Of a stretch of 64,000 bases of DNA, positions 25,955-36,474 are shown one piece after another. Within the stretch, counting starts at the first letter, position 1. Every line of letters begins with the position of its first letter. The stretch is from Variovorax sp. OAS795. GTDB taxonomy: Bacteria > Pseudomonadota > Gammaproteobacteria > Burkholderiales > Burkholderiaceae_C. A model generated the notes under the pieces. That model was not told the DNA's origin. It ran no database searches and was given only the letters and a program-made list of their open reading frames with translations. Both the position numbers and the translations under genes were made by a program. Where the stretch lies: the NCBI RefSeq assembly GCF_040546685.1, contig NZ_JBEPOH010000001.1:4836001-4900000 (forward strand), in the 5' to 3' direction.

Positions 25955-27064
<1,110 letters not shown>

Positions 27065-27078
27065 GGGGGCCTTGTTCT

Positions 27079-30000
27079 TCAGGCCGCGCTCACCGCGGCG
27101 GCCAGCGCCCGGCCCATGGCCTCGAACTGGAACTGGCGCGCGAGCACGCGCTGCGCCTCGGTCCATGCCGCGCATTCGGGTTGTTCGGCATCGATCTCGT
27201 CGAGCTGGTTCATGATGCCGCGAAAATAGCCCAGGCTCACCGCTTCGTCCAGCGCGCGCAGCCGCGACACCGCAGGCGCAAGCATGGCGCGCGGCAAGGC
27301 GGCGGGCGCGGGCTTGGCCGCAGTGTCCGTCCACCGCAGGCCGAGGCGGCGTTCGAGCCAGTCGAGCAACTCCGTGTGGCGCACCGGCTTGACGAAGAAG
27401 TCTTCCGGCGCAATGCCGGCGTCGTTGTCCAGGCCCTTGTCGAAGGCGTTGGCCGACACGATGGCGACCGATGCATCGGCCAGCCCGAGCTTGCGCGCGC
27501 GCCGGATCGTCTCCCAGCCGTCGATGCCGGGCATGGCAAGGTCGACGAACACCGCGTCGGGCCGGTAGCCGGCCGCGATCAGGTCGAGGGCGTCATGCCC
27601 GCTGGCGGCGGTGCGCAGCTCGAAGCCGAGCGGCGCCAGGACATGGCCGAGCAGGTCGCGGTCGGCCTCCTCGTTGTCGACCACCAGCAGCCGCCGGCGC
27701 GGGCCTTCGTAGCCGCGCCGCGGGCGCTGCATTGGAACCGGCCGGCCTGCGGCAACCGCCGCATCGTGCACGCGCGGCAGGAAGAGCCGCACGCAGAACA
27801 GCGAGCCTTCTCCCGGCGTGCTGCGCACCTTCATCTCGCCGCCCATCAGGTCGGTCAGCATCTTGGCGATGGTGAGGCCCAGCCCGGCGCCGGGCGTGGA
27901 AGCCGCCGCCGAATGGCCGCGCGCAAAGGGCTCGAAGATGCGCTCGATGTCCGCGGCCGTCATGCCGGGCCCGGTGTCCTCGATCTCGACCGACGCGAAC
28001 TCCCGCGCATACGACAGCCGCAGCGTCACCTCGCCCGCGCCGGTGAACTTGATGGCGTTGCCCAGCAGGTTGATGAGGATCTGGCACACGCGCTTCTCGT
28101 CGGCGCGCACCACCTCGGGCAAGCTGCCGGTCGTCTCGAAGCGGAAGCGCAGTCCCTTCTCGGCCGCCTGCAGCTCGAACATGTCGGCCAGTTCGCGCAG
28201 GGTATCGGCAAAGCGCATGGGCCTGGCATGGAGCGTGAGCTTGCCGGCTTCGATGTGCGCAATGGCCAGCGTGCCTTCGATGAGCGACAGCAGGTGCTCG
28301 CCGCCGCGCTTGATCACCGCCACCGCCTGCTGGCGGTGCGGCGGCACCGAATGGTCTTCGCCCATGAGCTGCGCATAGCCCAGGATGCTGTTGAGCGGGG
28401 TGCGCAGCTCGTGGCTGATGGCGCTGATATAGCGGCTCTTGGCCTGGTTGGCCTGGTCGGCGGCACGGCGCGCCAGGTCGGCTGCGAGCTTGGCCTGCTC
28501 GGCCACCTCGCGCGCTTCTTCCGCCGTCTGCTTGGCCGACTGCAGCGCCCGGTCGGTCGCGCGGTGCAGCTCGATCTCGCGCATCAGCAGGTGCGTCTGG
28601 CGGTTCGATTCCTCTTGCGCGACCCGGCGGCTCTGGTGCGCCAGCACCAGCCACCAGGCCACCACGCCGGCGATCACCAGCAGCGCCATGTAGGCCTTGA
28701 GAAAGCCCGAGCGCAACGCAGACTGCTGGGCATTCGCCAGGGCTTCGGCCAGTTCCGACTGCGACGCCATCTGCAGCACGCTGTCGGCCATGGCGCGCAG
28801 CTCCTGCTGGTAGAGCACGCCGAACACCACCGCCAGCACCGGCACGATGATCAGCATCAGCAGCAGGAAGTGCCCCAGCCCGGTGTCCAGATAGCGCCAG
28901 CTGAAGCGCGGCAGCAGCCAGCGCAGCACCGACGACCATTGCGCCGACAGGCTCGCATGCGGCTTGCACAGGTCGCCGCAGCGCGCATCGAGCGTGCAGC
29001 ACAGGGAGCAGATCGCACCCTGGTAGGCCGGGCAATGGGCCATGTCCGGCCCTTCGTACTCGCGCTCGCAGATCACGCAGTGCTGCACCTTGAGGCGCTG
29101 GTAGCTGCCCTCGGCGCCGCGCCCGTCCGCGTCGTTCTCGACGCGCGCCCAGCGGACCGCGCGCCCGCCCGCAGCCGGCGCAAACGCGACCGCGCCATGG
29201 GCCGCCGTGCCTCGCGCGAGGTAGTACTTGCCGCCGGTGGCCCAAGCCAGCAGCGGCGAGACCACCAGCGCCGTGCCGAGCGCGATCAGCGCCGAGAAAG
29301 CCTGCGCCAGCGGCCCGAAGAGGCCCAGGTGGGCGGTGATCGACAACAGCGAGGCCAGTGCCATCGCACCGACCCCCACCGGATTGATGTCCCACAGGTG
29401 CGCCCGCTTGAACTCGATGCCCGGCGGCGAAAGGCCCAGCGGCTTGTTGATGACCAGGTCGGCCACCACCGCCATCATCCAGGCGATGGCGATGTTGGCG
29501 AACAGGCCGAGCACGTCGCCCAGCGCCTCGAACACGTTCATCTCCATCAGCATGAAGGCGATGAGCGCGTTGAACACCACCCACACCACCCGCCCCGGAT
29601 GGCTGTGGGCCACGCGCGAGAAGAAATTGCTCCAGGCCAGCGAGCCCGCGTAGGCGTTGGTCACGTTGATCTTGAGCTGCGAGATCACGACGAAGAGCGC
29701 GGTAGCGGCCACGGCCCAGCCATAGTTGGGAAACACGTACTCGTAGGCCGCGAGATACATCTGGTTCGGGTCGACCGCACGCTCGACCGGCACCATGTGC
29801 GTGATCGCAAGGTAGGCCAGGAGCGCGCCGCCCAGCATCTTGAGCACGCCCAGCAGCACCCAGCCGGGCCCGCCTGCCAGCACGCCGGCCCACCAGCGCC
29901 GGGCGCTCCCCGCCGTGCGCGCCGGCATGAAGCGCAGGTAGTCGGCCTGTTCCCCCATCTGGGTGATCAATGCAATGCCGACGGTCAGCGCAGCGCCAAA

Positions 30001-30720
30001 GAGGTGCAGATCGAAACCCTTGGTGCTGGCTTTCGACCCGTTGTAGTGCACGATGCCCGCGAATGCACCAGGATCGCGCACCAGCACGAAGACAAAAGGC
30101 ACCACCAGCATCACCAGCCAGAGCGGCTGCGTCCAGAGCTGGAGCCTGCTGATGGCCGACACGCCATGGGTGACCAGCGGGATCACCACCAGCGCGCACA
30201 CCAGGTAGCCCCAGACCGGCGGCACGCCCAGCGCCAGTTCGAGCGCATAGGCCATCACCGCCGCCTCGAGCGCAAAGAAGATGAAGGTGAACGACGCGTA
30301 GATCAGCGAGGTGAGCGTGGAGCCGATGTAGCCGAAGCCCGCGCCGCGCGTGAGCAGGTCCATGTCGACGCCGTAGCGCGCGGCATACACGCTGATCGGC
30401 AGGCCCGCCAGGAAGATGATGAGGCCCGTGGCCACGATGGCCCAGAACGCATTGGCGAAGCCGTACTGCACCAGCAGCGTGGCGCCGACCGCCTCCAGGA
30501 TGAGGAACGACGCCGCACCGAACGCCGTGTTGGCCACCCGCCATTCGGACCACTTGCGAAAGCGCTGCGGGGTGTAGCGCAGGGCGTAGTCCTCGAGCGT
30601 CTCGCTCGCCACCCAGCTGTTGTAGTCGCGCCGGACCTTGACGATGCGTTGCGGCGCGTCATCGGTGGTGGGGGGTGTCTCGGCGGGATTCACACCGTTT
30701 CGGTGCATCTTTCGTGCCAT
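27079..30720 (-). CDS. Hybrid sensor histidine kinase with an N-terminal purine/cytosine permease (NCS1-like) domain
   Basis: A 1,213-residue fusion. Residues ~45-510 form a nucleobase-cation symporter-1-like membrane domain (about 12 hydrophobic helices, with [19 protein letters not shown]). Next come a Cys-rich module (548-588, eight Cys and terminal His, zinc-finger-like) and two further membrane helices near 615-690. A coiled-coil linker, a HisKA domain (His 770 in [12 protein letters not shown]), an HATPase domain ([25 protein letters not shown]) and a receiver (Asp 1060 in VDLAMPG) follow. Transporter-fused sensors such as CbrA are known, so the permease domain probably senses or moves a nucleobase-like or other nitrogen compound. 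It is divergent from ureA and leads the response-regulator gene. The start at 30720 is likely; a second ATG is at 30708. Confidence 0.9.
30691..30707. promoter_or_regulatory. NtrC-like dyad site
   Basis: The 17-bp sequence CACACCGTTTCGGTGCA matches the NtrC consensus TGCACC-N5-GGTGCA at 10 of 12 positions. It is centred about 70 bp upstream of the predicted ureA transcript start and overlaps the first codons of the hybrid kinase gene. It could activate the sigma-54 promoter and repress the kinase. No binding data; this is a pattern match. Confidence 0.5.
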
Positions 30721-30741
30721 CCATACGTCGTTTGGCGAACA

Positions 30742-30758
30742 CCGGCACGACTGTTGCA
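30742..30758 (+). promoter_or_regulatory. Sigma-54 promoter for the urease genes
   Basis: The sequence CCGGCACGACTGTTGCA matches the RpoN consensus YTGGCACGRNNNTTGCW at all but one specified position. The invariant GG (30744-30745) and GC (30756-30757) are exactly 10 bp apart. It reads toward ureA, placing the transcript start near 30769, about 42 bp before the ureA ATG. It lies in the 90-bp gap between the divergent hybrid kinase and ureA. Confidence 0.75.
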
Positions 30759-30810
30759 AAGCCCAAGCCTGCCCAATAATGGCCGACCTCCGCCATCCGA
30801 TGCCGCCCCC

Positions 30811-31113
<303 letters not shown>

Positions 31114-31142: not shown

Positions 31143-31742
31143 ATGCGCCACAACGCTTCCAAGACCCTTGCCCTTGCCGCCCTGCTGCTGCCGTTCGCCG
31201 CCGCCGCCCATACCGGCGCGGACGCCGGCATGCACCACGGCTTCGCGGCCGGCTTCATGCACCCGCTCACCGGCGCCGACCACCTGGCGGCCATGGTCGC
31301 GGTCGGCCTCTGGAGCGCGCTGGCCGCGCGCCGCGCCTGGCCCGATCTGCTGTGGGCGCCGCTGGCCTTTGCCGGCATGCTGCTCGCGGGCGCGCTGATG
31401 GGCCTCGCAGGCGTGCAGTTGCCGGCGGTCGAACCGATGATTGCTGCCTCGCTGCTGGTGCTGGGCCTGCTCGTGGCCGCGCGCATCCACCTGCCGGCGG
31501 CCGCGGCCGCGGCAGTGGCGGGCCTGTTCGCCGTCTTCCATGGCCTGGCCCACGGTCATGAACTCGTGCACGCGCAGGGTGCGGCGCTGACGCTGGCCGG
31601 CATGGTCGCGGCCACCGTGCTGCTTCACCTCGCTGGCATTGCAGCGGGATGGGCGCTGCGCCATGCGAATGCCTGGCTGCCGCGCGTGGCGGGCGCCGCG
31701 GTGGTGGCGCTGGGTGCCACGCTGCTCTCCCAGGCCGCCTGA
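31143..31742 (+). CDS. ureJ: HupE/UreJ family nickel or cobalt permease
   Basis: A 199-residue membrane protein with a signal-like N-terminus, about six hydrophobic helices and the family motif [17 protein letters not shown] second His-rich segment ([12 protein letters not shown]) is also present. HupE/UreJ proteins import Ni2+ for urease or hydrogenase. Its place between ureA and ureB, with a 1-bp overlap into ureB (TGATG), strongly supports nickel supply to urease. Confidence 0.93.
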
Positions 31743-32047
31743 TGATCCCCGGCGAGCTTTTCACCGACGAGGGCGAGCACACGCTCAACCCCGGCCGCCG
31801 CACCCTCACCCTGGTGGTGCAGAACACCGCTGACCGGCCGATCCAGGTCGGCTCGCACTATCACTTTGCCGAGACCAACGGCGCGCTCGGCTTCGACCGC
31901 GAGGCCGCGCGCGGCATGCGGCTCAACATTGCCTCGGGCGCCGCGGTGCGCTTCGAGCCGGGCCAGCAGCGCACGGTCGAGCTGGTCGACTTTTCGGGCG
32001 ACCGCGTCGTCTATGGCTTTCGCGGCCTCATCCAGGGAAAGCTCTAA
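31742..32047 (+). CDS. ureB: Urease beta subunit
   Basis: A 101-residue UreB with [11 protein letters not shown] at the start, then [17 protein letters not shown] sequence ([16 protein letters not shown]) and [16 protein letters not shown]. It packs against UreC in the urease trimer. The ATG at 31742 overlaps the ureJ stop, and ureC starts 3 bp after its own stop, so all three are co-translated. Confidence 0.98.
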
Positions 32048-32050
32048 CCC

Positions 32051-33823
<1,773 letters not shown>

Positions 33824-33835
33824 ATGCTGCGGGCC

Positions 33836-34228
33836 TCAGGCCGAACGAGCTGCCATGTGGCCACGGATCCAGGTGGCAAAGCCCTTTTCGTCCATGGCGC
33901 TGGCGGCCACGTCGAACATCACCAGCGTGGCCTCGGCCTGCGTCGCCACCAACCGCTGGCCGTTGAGGGCAAGGAACAGACCGACGGACAGGAATGCTGC
34001 GCGCTTGTTGCCATCGACGAACGGATGGTTCTTGGCCAGGCCCACACCGTAGGCCGCCGCGAGATCAGCCACGTCGGGCGATCCGTAGTTCACAAGGTGG
34101 AGCGGGCGCGACAGCGCGGACTGCAGCATCGTTTCATCGCGAAGGCCCGAGGCCCCGCCATGCTCGGCAAGGCTTTCGTCATGCAACAGGATCAGGGTGC
34201 GCCCGTCGATCCAGCGCCAGGCGCTCAT
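33836..34228 (-). CDS. doc: Doc-type (Fic domain) toxin
   Basis: A 130-residue protein with the Doc-specific Fic motif HPFVDGNKR. Doc toxins phosphorylate elongation factor Tu and stop translation. The gene lies antisense within the urease cluster, converging on ureC with a 12-bp gap. Its ATG overlaps the antitoxin stop (ATGA), the coupled layout of a type II module. Confidence 0.92.
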   Translation of the reverse strand: MSAWRWIDGRTLILLHDESLAEHGGASGLRDETMLQSALSRPLHLVNYGSPDVADLAAAYGVGLAKNHPFVDGNKRAAFLSVGLFLALNGQRLVATQAEATLVMFDVAASAMDEKGFATWIRGHMAARSA

Positions 34229-34449
34229 TTGGCGAGCTGGTGGAAGGTATCGCGGAACTCACGCATGAATTCGCGGCCCAGCTTCAGCTGTTCTTCGACG
34301 TCGGGGTCGTACGGCGTGAGGGTGACGCCATTGGCAGCCTCAGTCAGGAACAGCGTATCGCCCTTTTCCACCTTGAGCCGCGCCAGCACTTCCTTGGGAA
34401 GAATCACCCCGACGGAGTTGCCGATCTGGGTCAATTTGAGTGCCGGCAT
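34225..34449 (-). CDS. AbrB/MazE-type antitoxin
   Basis: A 74-residue protein with a SpoVT/AbrB swapped-hairpin DNA-binding domain (KLTQIGNSVGVILPKEVLARLKVEKGD). A C-terminal tail follows that would cover the toxin. Doc toxins are often paired with this antitoxin type in proteobacteria instead of Phd. It precedes and overlaps the doc gene and likely binds its own promoter. Confidence 0.9.
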   Translation of the reverse strand: MPALKLTQIGNSVGVILPKEVLARLKVEKGDTLFLTEAANGVTLTPYDPDVEEQLKLGREFMREFRDTFHQLAK

Positions 34450-34462
34450 ACAGGGCTCCAAA

Positions 34463-34503
34463 GTTATAACAGACGTTATATTAACGACGTCTTCCCGCTG
34501 AAA
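34463..34503 (-). promoter_or_regulatory. Promoter and operator of the toxin-antitoxin pair
   Basis: On the minus strand, TTTCAG (-35, 34498-34503) and TATAAC (-10, 34475-34480) are spaced 17 bp. Two related repeats, GTTATAAC (34463-34470) and GTTATATTAAC (34475-34485), overlap the -10 and could be antitoxin operator half-sites. This stretch is markedly AT-rich compared with the surrounding DNA. Confidence 0.55.
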
Positions 34504-34513
34504 GCAAGTTCCC

Positions 34514-35098
34514 ATGCTCACCGCCAACAAACTCATGCCCCAGGGCCGCGGCCTTGCGCCCGTGCTGCGGAAGCGCGCCGCCACCATCGAACTGGACTGG
34601 GACGTGCGCCAGAAAAGCCGTTTCGACGTCACCGACTCGCAGGGCCGGCAGATCGGTGTGTTCCTGCCGCGCGGCACCGCGGTGCGCGGCGGTGACGTGC
34701 TGGTGGCCGAAGACGGCTCGCTGGTCCGCGTCATTGCGGCGCCGCAGCCGGTGCTGCGCATCACGCATTGCACGGCCCATGGCACGCCCTTCGACTTGAC
34801 GCGGGCGGCCTATCACCTGGGCAACCGGCATGTGCCGATCGAACTCAAGCCCGACCACCTGAAGATCGAGCCCGACCATGTGCTGGCCGACATGCTGCGC
34901 TCCATGCACCTGATCGTGGTGGCCGTCGAGGAAGCCTTCGAGCCGGAGGGCGGCGCCTACGGGTCGCACGAGCATTCGCATGGCGGTGGGCACAGTCATG
35001 ACCATGCTCAATCGCATGGCAACGACAAGGGGCCGAGGCCGCTTGTGCTCGCGCCGGAGCTTCTGGACGAGCATGACCATCACGGCCACTCTCACTGA
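34514..35098 (+). CDS. ureE: Urease accessory protein UreE (nickel chaperone)
   Basis: A 194-residue metallochaperone that delivers Ni2+ to the UreDFG-apourease complex. The N-terminal domain has [25 protein letters not shown], and the C-terminal domain has [13 protein letters not shown]. The tail is rich in His (two clusters, [13 protein letters not shown] and EHDHHGHSH), a Ni-storage feature. It is separated from ureC by 690 bp holding the antisense toxin-antitoxin pair, so ureEFG may need their own promoter or read-through. Confidence 0.96.
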
Positions 35099-35133: not shown

Positions 35134-35805
35134 ATGCCCGACGCCCACAGCCTCCTGCAGCTCATCTGGCTGGCATCCCCCGCCCTGCCCGTCGGCGGCT
35201 TCTCCTATTCGGAAGGCGTCGAAGCCGCAGTCGAATGGGCCGGCATCGACTCGGAATCGAAGGCCATCGAATGGCTGTCCGACCAGTTGCATCTGGGCTT
35301 CGCGCGCGGCGACCTTGCACTGGTCGCGCAAGCCATACCCGCCTGGCGCGCCGGCGACGCCGAGCGCATCCGCGCGCTCAACCAATGGGTTCTCGCCACG
35401 CGCGAATCGGCCGAGTTCTTCCTTCAGACCGAGCAGATGGGCCGCTCGTTCGTCGAGTGGCTCAAGCTGCATCACACCGACACGGCGGAGGTCTTTGCGG
35501 ACCTGCCCGCAAGCTACCCCGTTGCCTTCGCCTTCGCGCTGAGCCGCACCGGCGCCACGACCACCGACGGCTGCCTGGCCTTCGCCTTCGGCTGGGCCGA
35601 GAACATGGTGGCCGCCGCGGTCAAGGCCGTGCCGCTCGGACAGAGCGCGGGCCAGCGCATCCTGGCGCGGCTCGCGAATGAAATTCCCGCCGCCGTCGAG
35701 CGCGCGATGGCCCTCGGCGACGATGAGCGCCAAGCCTTTGCGCCCCTCCTGGCCGTGTTGTCGGCACGCCATGAAACACAATACTCGCGCCTCTTCAGAA
35801 GCTGA
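35134..35805 (+). CDS. ureF: Urease accessory protein UreF
   Basis: A 223-residue accessory protein that forms the UreDFG activation complex. Family features are visible: [28 protein letters not shown] at the start and [16 protein letters not shown] near the end. It lies between ureE and ureG with short gaps. UreF normally needs UreD, which is not in this window. Confidence 0.96.
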
Positions 35806-35823: not shown

Positions 35824-36474
35824 ATGACCTCCGCACTGCACCATATTCCCCATCGCACCAAGAAATTGCCGCCCCTTCGCGTCGGCATCGGCGGACCGGT
35901 CGGCTCGGGCAAGACCACGCTGCTCGAAATGCTCTGCAAGGCGATGCGCGACAAGTACGACCTGGTCGCCATCACCAACGACATCTACACCAAGGAAGAC
36001 CAGCGCCTGCTGACCGTGGCTGGCGCATTGCCGGCCGAGCGCATCATGGGCGTGGAGACCGGCGGCTGCCCGCACACCGCCATCCGCGAAGACGCCTCGA
36101 TCAACCTCGAGGCCATCGACCGCATGCTCGAGGACTTTCCCGATGCCGACGTGGTGTTCGTCGAATCGGGCGGAGACAACCTCGCGGCCACCTTCAGCCC
36201 CGAGCTGTCCGACCTGACCATCTACGTGATCGACGTGGCCGCCGGCGAGAAGATTCCACGCAAGGGCGGACCCGGCATCACCAAGAGCGACCTGTTCATC
36301 ATCAACAAGACCGACCTCGCCCCCTACGTCGGCGCCAACCTCGACGTCATGGAGCAGGACACGCAGCGCATGCGCCGCCAGCGCCCCTACGTGATGACCA
36401 ACCTCAAGACGCTTGCGGGCCTGGCCGAGGTGGTGGCCTTCATCGAAACGCGCGGCATGCTCACGGCTGCCTGA
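35824..36474 (+). CDS. ureG: Urease accessory GTPase UreG
   Basis: A 216-residue SIMIBI GTPase that drives nickel insertion. The P-loop is [13 protein letters not shown]. The Ni-binding Cys-Pro-His motif is in [15 protein letters not shown], with the G3 [13 protein letters not shown] and G4 NKTDLAP. It is the last urease gene, followed by a hairpin. Confidence 0.98.

Follow-up and report, generated by a model that had tools for sequence, protein, structure and literature searches.

The 64,000-nucleotide stretch of Variovorax sp. OAS795 analysed here (positions 4,836,001 to 4,900,000 of contig NZ_JBEPOH010000001.1, hereafter the window) carries a gene for a hybrid sensor histidine kinase with a permease-like N-terminal part, followed by a partner response regulator gene and divergent from ureA, ureJ, ureB, ureC, ureE, ureF and ureG. 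A sequence-only reading had described this protein and its locus, and that observation is confirmed by the results below. Residues are numbered on the translation P0001, which begins two codons ahead of the MARK start. The features of the locus are as follows.

25955..27064 (-), partner response regulator with a receiver and a LuxR/GerE helix-turn-helix (Pfam), ATG at 27064
27079..30720 (-), gene of the hybrid sensor kinase, counted from the MARK start at 30720
27361..27687 (-), C-terminal receiver domain of the kinase (Pfam)
27778..28443 (-), HisKA (His772) and HATPase_c (Pfam)
28639..28893 (-), pair of hydrophobic segments (residues 612-643 and 671-696, approximately) that separate the Cys module from HisKA
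28966..29079 (-), eight-Cys module, residues 550-587
29197..30603 (-), NCS1-like permease domain, about residues 42-510 (profile comparison and predicted structure)
29671-29673 and 30265-30267 (-), codons of K352 and E154 within the permease domain
30705..30719 (-), sigma-54-like box TGGCACGAAAGATGC, oriented towards the kinase gene
30724..30739 (no strand), candidate operator copy TACGTCGTTTGGCGAA, differing from TACGYCNNNNGRCGTA at one position, between the divergent sigma-54-like boxes
30743..30757 (+), sigma-54-like box facing ureA, CGGCACGACTGTTGC
30811..31113 (+), ureA (urease gamma)
31143..31742 (+), ureJ/HupE
31649..32047 (+), ureB open frame, in which the Urease_beta match begins at residue 34; start provisional
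32051..33823 (+), ureC
34514-35098 (+), ureE
35134-35805 (+), ureF
35824-36474 (+), ureG

The open frame of the kinase spans 27079-31098 (-) and codes for about 1,200 residues from 30720. The start candidates are MARK (30720), MHRN (30708) and perhaps a GTG at 30693; the last is considered because the kinase-facing sigma-54-like box (30719-30705), if real, covers the MARK codons, and 4 of the 29 nearest homologues shown start at this GTG codon and the remainder upstream. Pfam placed HisKA at residues 762-828, HATPase_c at 876-983 and Response_reg at 1014-1122, which bears out the earlier statement that all three lie in one protein, and the two extra helices of that reading correspond to hydrophobicity peaks at 620 and 678 after the Cys module (19-residue windows), the first stretch being helical in the predicted structure as well. 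With a transporter-fold domain and a histidine kinase in a single chain, the protein has the make-up of the transporter-type sensor kinases, and it is present in one copy in its own genome. The 25 NCBIfam families shown of 124 were all kinase or regulator families, below their cut-offs, and neither an SLC5 (SSF) nor a STAC family was among the Pfam hits, whether Pfam has a STAC model being unchecked. The partner regulator is the next gene downstream on the same strand; its receiver and GerE helix-turn-helix make it a NarL/LuxR-type response regulator, and Pfam found in it no AAA+ domain, by which a sigma-54 enhancer-binding protein would be recognised.

Pfam matched nothing in the N-terminal 517 residues, even with the cut-off at E<=10; none of 21 family members hit PF02133 at E<=1, and the alignment profile (A1) returned no NCS1 match from the PDB sequences, just chance hits at E 2.6 and 3.9. 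Profile-profile comparison (hhalign) with six PF02133-positive NCS1 proteins gave a probability of 99.0 and an E-value of 4.2e-18 over 401 columns at 13% identity. The predicted structure (mean pLDDT 82.2, pTM 0.83) had the NCS1 structures CodB and Mhp1 as its top matches and thus shows the NCS1 version of the LeuT fold. The lack of NCS1 similarity that had been named as fatal to the sequence-only reading is therefore found in a plain Pfam search and is overturned by the profile-profile comparison and the predicted structure, on which its NCS1-type transporter domain stands. Judged from these comparisons, the permease domain is NCS1-like, a distant branch outside PF02133; we call it NCS1-like and not a PF02133 member because only one of two stacking aromatics is kept, as described below.

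Matches to the kinase were present in 39 of 299 sampled Pseudomonadota genomes, the own genome counted and one match (G236) being a fragment. Of 42 long matches listed, 40 were taken for a context count covering about 10 kb on each side where contigs allow (some shorter at contig ends: L139, L150, L153); the own genome and the partial G224 were left out, and the 30%-identical distant frame G193:C40 and the G236 fragment were not counted. Urease, urt or amidase/formamidase genes lay within this distance in 39/40 (ure or urt genes in 37, amidase or formamidase genes in 29), the exception, L150, being a contig end, as against 0/20 control stretches from arbitrarily chosen places in genomes of the set (Fisher 5e-15, relatedness ignored). 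A regulator match was present in 36/40. The named close relatives are the best 80 of 594 loci and are for that reason biased to urease-type relatives; urease genes were found in 55 of them, and ure or urt genes in 64. According to annotated records, the kinase copies of S. meliloti, Shinella, Rhizobium and a Klebsiella plasmid are divergent from urtABCDE, the urea ABC transporter operon, with three small genes in between in S. meliloti, while urt lies beside the regulator in Thioclava and Roseateles has both urease and urt genes. Two genomes (G225 and G246) carry both a urease-type and a urt-type kinase copy. Plasmid records matching the N-terminal 640 residues numbered 525, of which 342 are named Klebsiella. 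The kinase region of a single Klebsiella record was inspected, and the 342 may include a few stand-alone permeases, that is, relatives without a kinase. These neighbourhoods suggest urea or a short-chain amide as the ligand class.

The pocket was mapped onto CodB by MAFFT with manual motif anchors, since hhalign -glob against CodB gave no usable alignment, using the pocket and sodium-site residues given for CodB in the part of PMC9379551 consulted. TM3 and TM6 could be aligned through clear motifs, D262/R265 of the TM6 D..R motif falling on CodB D213/R216. In this inferred alignment CodB W108 pairs with F150 and CodB F204 with L253, so that one of the two base-sandwiching aromatics would be retained; the TM6 stacking position is Leu253 in 78/78 kinases compared. 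If Mhp1 W117 is the counterpart of F150, Mhp1 Q121 would fall on E154. For TM8, a register anchored on CodB Y285=Y359 puts K352/I353 on the sodium-binding T278/T279, and the alternative register of the profile alignment puts K352 at Mhp1 A309 and V355/T356 at the hydroxyl pair (A309, S312 and T313 presumably being the sodium ligands of Mhp1), T356 being Met or Ala in some family members. In either of these inferred registers the Thr/Ser pair of the sodium site is lost and an invariant Lys occupies a sodium-site position. E154, Q256, E259, Q260, K352 and N354 are invariant in a 30-sequence alignment that includes actinobacterial stand-alones, and the Cys residues vary there. The core pocket residues are common to 51 urease-type and 27 urt/amide-type kinases, the latter being 27 of the 37 loci L131-L167 (L150, L155, L156, L157, L159, L160 and L164-L167 left out). 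The two groups differ at 251, 255, 257 and partly 252, beside the TM6 break, a difference confounded with ancestry. Thr255 was considered as a discriminator between urea and amides, being Thr in 49/51 urease-type and Ala or Val in 24/27 urt/amide-type kinases, but it is a lead only, because the groups are separate clades and exceptions exist (Ala in two kinases beside ure genes, L165 and L167, and Met in urease-linked stand-alones).

Stand-alone records made up 18 of the 30 matches listed, and nine annotated and two unannotated ones were looked at. Seven of the nine annotated stand-alones adjoin urease (two Acinetobacter records and one Klebsiella record), formamidase (Moraxella, Tsukamurella), an aliphatic amidase (Arthrobacter U41), or formamidase and amidase together (Methylovirgula, with a kinase and regulator in the same cluster). 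The urease-linked ones (L170 9971-11578, L168 5663-7270 and L169 9980-11587) lie in or beside the urease operons and are annotated as cytosine permease, allantoin permease or hypothetical protein; they are likely urea permeases. In the Acinetobacter record L036 a kinase gene and the gene of a same-clade stand-alone permease are divergently arranged. In the tree, 10 stand-alones fall on one side of a branch with support 100/99, and a single clade of 40 kinases is not rejected (p-AU 0.486); very long outgroup branches leave the root, and hence fusion versus fission, not fixed. Two kinases, L159 and L166, are encoded by frames of only 894 and 899 aa, which could not accommodate the domain set together with a receiver; they lie near an fmdA match and branch next to the stand-alone permeases.

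Among 54 divergent kinase-ureA gaps, a sigma-54-like box with at most one mismatch faces ureA in 30 and the kinase in 18, compared with a mean of 0.74 and a maximum of 3 boxes in dinucleotide shuffles; in the window the kinase-facing box overlaps the MARK codons. The ure genes and these boxes together agree with the divergent position to a sigma-54 urease operon claimed earlier. With no AAA+ domain found in it, the LuxR-type partner is not expected to activate the sigma-54-like ureA promoter on its own, and an enhancer-binding protein such as NtrC would be required at that promoter; of the proposed control of urea or purine-nitrogen use through this partner, probable urea-nitrogen control stands, but direct firing of ureA by the partner alone does not.

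A candidate operator for the partner came from counting dyads in the upstream regions of 38 kinases that are not close kin of the one in the window. ATACG-N8-CGTAT occurred in 13/38 and TACGT-N6-ACGTA in 12/38, and the pattern was condensed, after inspection of those upstream sequences, to TACGYC-N4-GRCGTA. Upstream of 44 such kinases, the 38 source ones included, it occurs in 14 with at most one mismatch and in 29 with at most two (shuffled 0.12 and 1.52). The 6.09-Mb own genome has one perfect match, at C1:4674829-4674844, 190 kb from the kinase and about 90 bp from the predicted urtA ATG, with urtBCDE following; one mismatch gives twelve additional places, window 30724-30739 among them. The sole perfect match is again directly upstream of urtA in G019 and G225, and G246 has three, one at the urt-type kinase promoter (4630028) and none close to its single urtA match at E<=1e-100; its other two, at C1:1295080-1295095 and C1:4639971-4639986, are unexplained. 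In the kinase-bearing named loci the palindrome with at most one mismatch stands upstream of 28/32 urtA genes, 18 of them with a perfect copy (shuffled 0.04), and upstream of none of 20 urtB, 17 urtC, 53 ureC, 37 ureG and 76 regulator genes; at two mismatches 3/53 ureC upstream regions have it (shuffled 1.98). An order-level sample of 30 loci among 40 urtA-bearing genomes (L215 without upstream DNA) included eight genomes that carry the kinase; G000 and G019 have a perfect site at urtA and G450 one with two mismatches. None of the 21 usable urtA genes from genomes without the kinase had a copy with at most one mismatch. The clearest predicted target of the partner is thus urtA, elsewhere in the genome.

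From the observed domain make-up, fold prediction, conservation, neighbourhoods and palindrome distribution we infer a ligand, a coupling route, a phosphotransfer, a promoter type, DNA binding and the ownership of the palindrome by the regulator. We consider it probable that the kinase is a transporter-type sensor of urea or short-chain amides that acts through its LuxR-type partner on the palindromes at urtA and in the kinase-ureA gap. The NCS1-like domain would bind urea or a closely related short-chain amide, and the filled central pocket would shift the transporter bundle, a movement that may be transmitted through the eight-Cys module and the two further helices to HisKA. Phosphate would then pass to the regulator encoded directly downstream, which would bind the 7-2-7 palindrome TACGYC-N4-GRCGTA upstream of urtABCDE and its weaker copy in the kinase-ureA gap; both urea import and urease would then track the urea supply. 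NtrC-type general nitrogen control would be layered on top, because each of the two promoters in that gap appears to depend on sigma-54. A second subtype in other Pseudomonadota, situated on urtABCDE and often with amidase or formamidase genes, presumably answers to short-chain amides. The broader proposal, for which we see about even chances, is an undescribed class of transporter-type sensor kinases. Its NCS1-like domain would work without sodium, K352 taking the place of the ion, and bind urea or short-chain amides directly; the Cys module, which free-standing permeases of the clade share, would couple pocket and kinase in place of STAC. The 7-2-7 regulon would extend across Pseudomonadota and, judging by sequence matches, hundreds of Klebsiella plasmid records, the stand-alones being unrecognised urea or amide permeases.

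Several observations weigh against this reading. Sixteen of the 80 best named loci have none of the searched genes, 9/55 even in stretches of at least 19 kb, and related loci are not independent of one another. Two of the nine annotated stand-alones, those of Arthrobacter NicSoilB11 and Streptomyces angustmyceticus, have no urea or amide gene beside them, and of the unannotated ones L035 had no neighbour match with the query set and L036 matched the regulator only. The operator is weak at the ureA gap, being present in 10 of 54 ure-type gaps with at most one mismatch and in 11 with at most two (shuffled 0.12 and 1.41), and control of ureA is therefore less certain than that of urtA. The reversed pattern occurs at 139 places in the own genome with at most one mismatch, as compared to 13 for the real one, and in three other genomes perfect matches numbered 2, 5 and 4 for the reversed and 1, 1 and 3 for the real pattern; there is no genome-wide enrichment, and the operator argument consequently rests on position. 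Five genomes with only a 65-66% kinase had no operator at the urtA found, although one of them, G170, does carry a perfect copy in front of its kinase gene (L134), the only kinase promoter of the five that was examined, and G354, which lacks the kinase, has a two-mismatch copy at urtA.

The domain may instead read the flux or state of the UrtABCDE/urease pathway, or internal nitrogen or ammonium, and not urea itself. The sigma-54-like boxes, which point to nitrogen control, speak for this, but stand-alones that share the TM6 and TM8 pocket residues adjoin urease or amidase/formamidase genes in stretches where no kinase is annotated, which fits a substrate pocket, and we regard this possibility as unlikely. 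It is also distinctly unlikely that the palindrome is owned by another urtA regulator and follows the kinase by shared ancestry only, although the relatedness of the compared loci would allow it. The motif, derived from the promoters of kinases in other lineages, turned up in the own genome at urtA, 190 kb from the kinase; it was missing at 21/21 usable urtA genes without the kinase (<=1 mismatch), and a 7-2-7 spacing is typical of NarL-type sites, the class of the partner.

The eight Cys residues (550, 553, 565, 573, 576, 577, 583 and 587) are all present in 120/120 homologues listed, the closest 120 of 7999 scored, which share 81-96% identity in their N-terminal part, many of them named Variovorax and some called 'purine-cytosine permease-like' by their sources. 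The zinc-finger-like insert proposed earlier is supported, any metal in it being putative. Pfam matches were weak, to Prok-RING_1 (3/23 members) and Zn_ribbon_11 (2/23) with best E-values of 0.022 and 0.029; a PDB profile search gave a zinc finger as its best hit (E 0.064), and a separate model of the module (mean pLDDT 72.2, pTM 0.52) gave weak RING/PHD matches (best E 0.23). Urease requires nickel. The module could itself be the sensor, of zinc, of nickel for urease or of redox state, with the permease domain as a passive anchor, as its conservation would allow. Stand-alone permeases without a kinase, however, carry forms of it: in Klebsiella, Acinetobacter and Moraxella the stand-alone tail finishes with two CxxC motifs (a four-Cys form), that of Methylovirgula keeps all eight Cys, most actinobacterial ones shown keep one or two, and two from Streptomyces plasmids keep five. 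For this reason the module, as far as these tails tell, is an element of the permease lineage and did not arrive solely with the kinase. Together with the pocket residues, which are invariant in the 30-sequence alignment where the Cys are not, this makes a Cys sensor improbable. The ring ligands of the sequence-only reading (a purine, pyrimidine, hydantoin or allantoin, with urease controlled because these break down to urea) are highly improbable and found no support, for although characterised NCS1 proteins mostly carry such compounds in the parts consulted of PMC9379551 and PMC13390362, the fold matches CodB and Mhp1 and some stand-alones are annotated cytosine or allantoin permease by name only, 39/40 neighbourhoods hold urt, ure or amidase/formamidase genes, one stacking aromatic is Leu253, and seven annotated kinase loci show no purine or hydantoin catabolism genes except Shinella, with hydantoinase/oxoprolinase-type genes about 3 kb from the kinase, a negative that rests on annotations because purine genes were not among the neighbourhood queries.

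The proposed urea or amide sensor resembles the SLC5/STAC kinases CbrA, CrbS and RpuS in joining a LeuT-fold transporter domain to a histidine kinase; unlike them, its domain is NCS1-like, the link consists of the eight-Cys module and two helices, and the apparent ligand class is urea or amides. Lysine K196 fills the sodium site of CbrA in the portion of PMC13022988 consulted, and Lys352 may play a similar role in the Variovorax kinase. The ammonium sensor kinase Ks-Amt5 is likewise a transporter that has become a nitrogen sensor and carries a fused kinase, but it has the Amt fold and is a trimer, and the sections of PMC5764959 drawn on describe a DHp and CA part and no Cys module or receiver. 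CodB and Mhp1 share the fold and the TM6 D..R motif, whereas the Variovorax domain is 13-18% identical to them, has no PF02133 hit, a Leu in TM6, no sodium-site hydroxyl pair and an extra Cys tail. The metformin transporter MetT, also of NCS1 type, has an acyclic nitrogen substrate and is reported in the excerpt of PMC13390362 consulted as likely proton-coupled, but is a free transporter and is likened here by description only. A similar gene arrangement is found in urtABCDE operon III of Ectopseudomonas guguanensis, which has histidine kinase and LuxR genes; the relevant passages of that genome description (PMC13296017) mention no permease domain, ligand or operator. A 2026 Klebsiella preprint links an acquired UrtABC/AmiF cluster to urinary fitness, and 'histidine kinase' has zero occurrences in its text as available (PMC13060141). 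No description of an NCS1-type kinase or a urea-sensing permease-kinase was among the matches listed from the open-licence PMC literature.

Few kinds of transporter-type sensor are known, in the literature covered SLC5/STAC and Amt; an NCS1-like kind would join them with its regulator named and its ligand and operator predicted, which makes the mechanism testable at once. If true, it would give bacteria a dedicated urea or amide sensor, stand-alone 'cytosine/allantoin permeases' would be re-annotated as urea or amide carriers, and a regulator would be placed beside the Klebsiella plasmid urt-formamidase cluster (L031), which resembles that of PMC13060141, as far as described there, by type only. 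As for the urease operon, a 225-aa open frame between ureC and ureE (window 33824-34501, (+)) has no Pfam hit and is possibly a gene, and the sole UreD match of the own genome lies at C1:4641824-4642429 (L234), about 225 kb from ureABC and nearer to urtABCDE.

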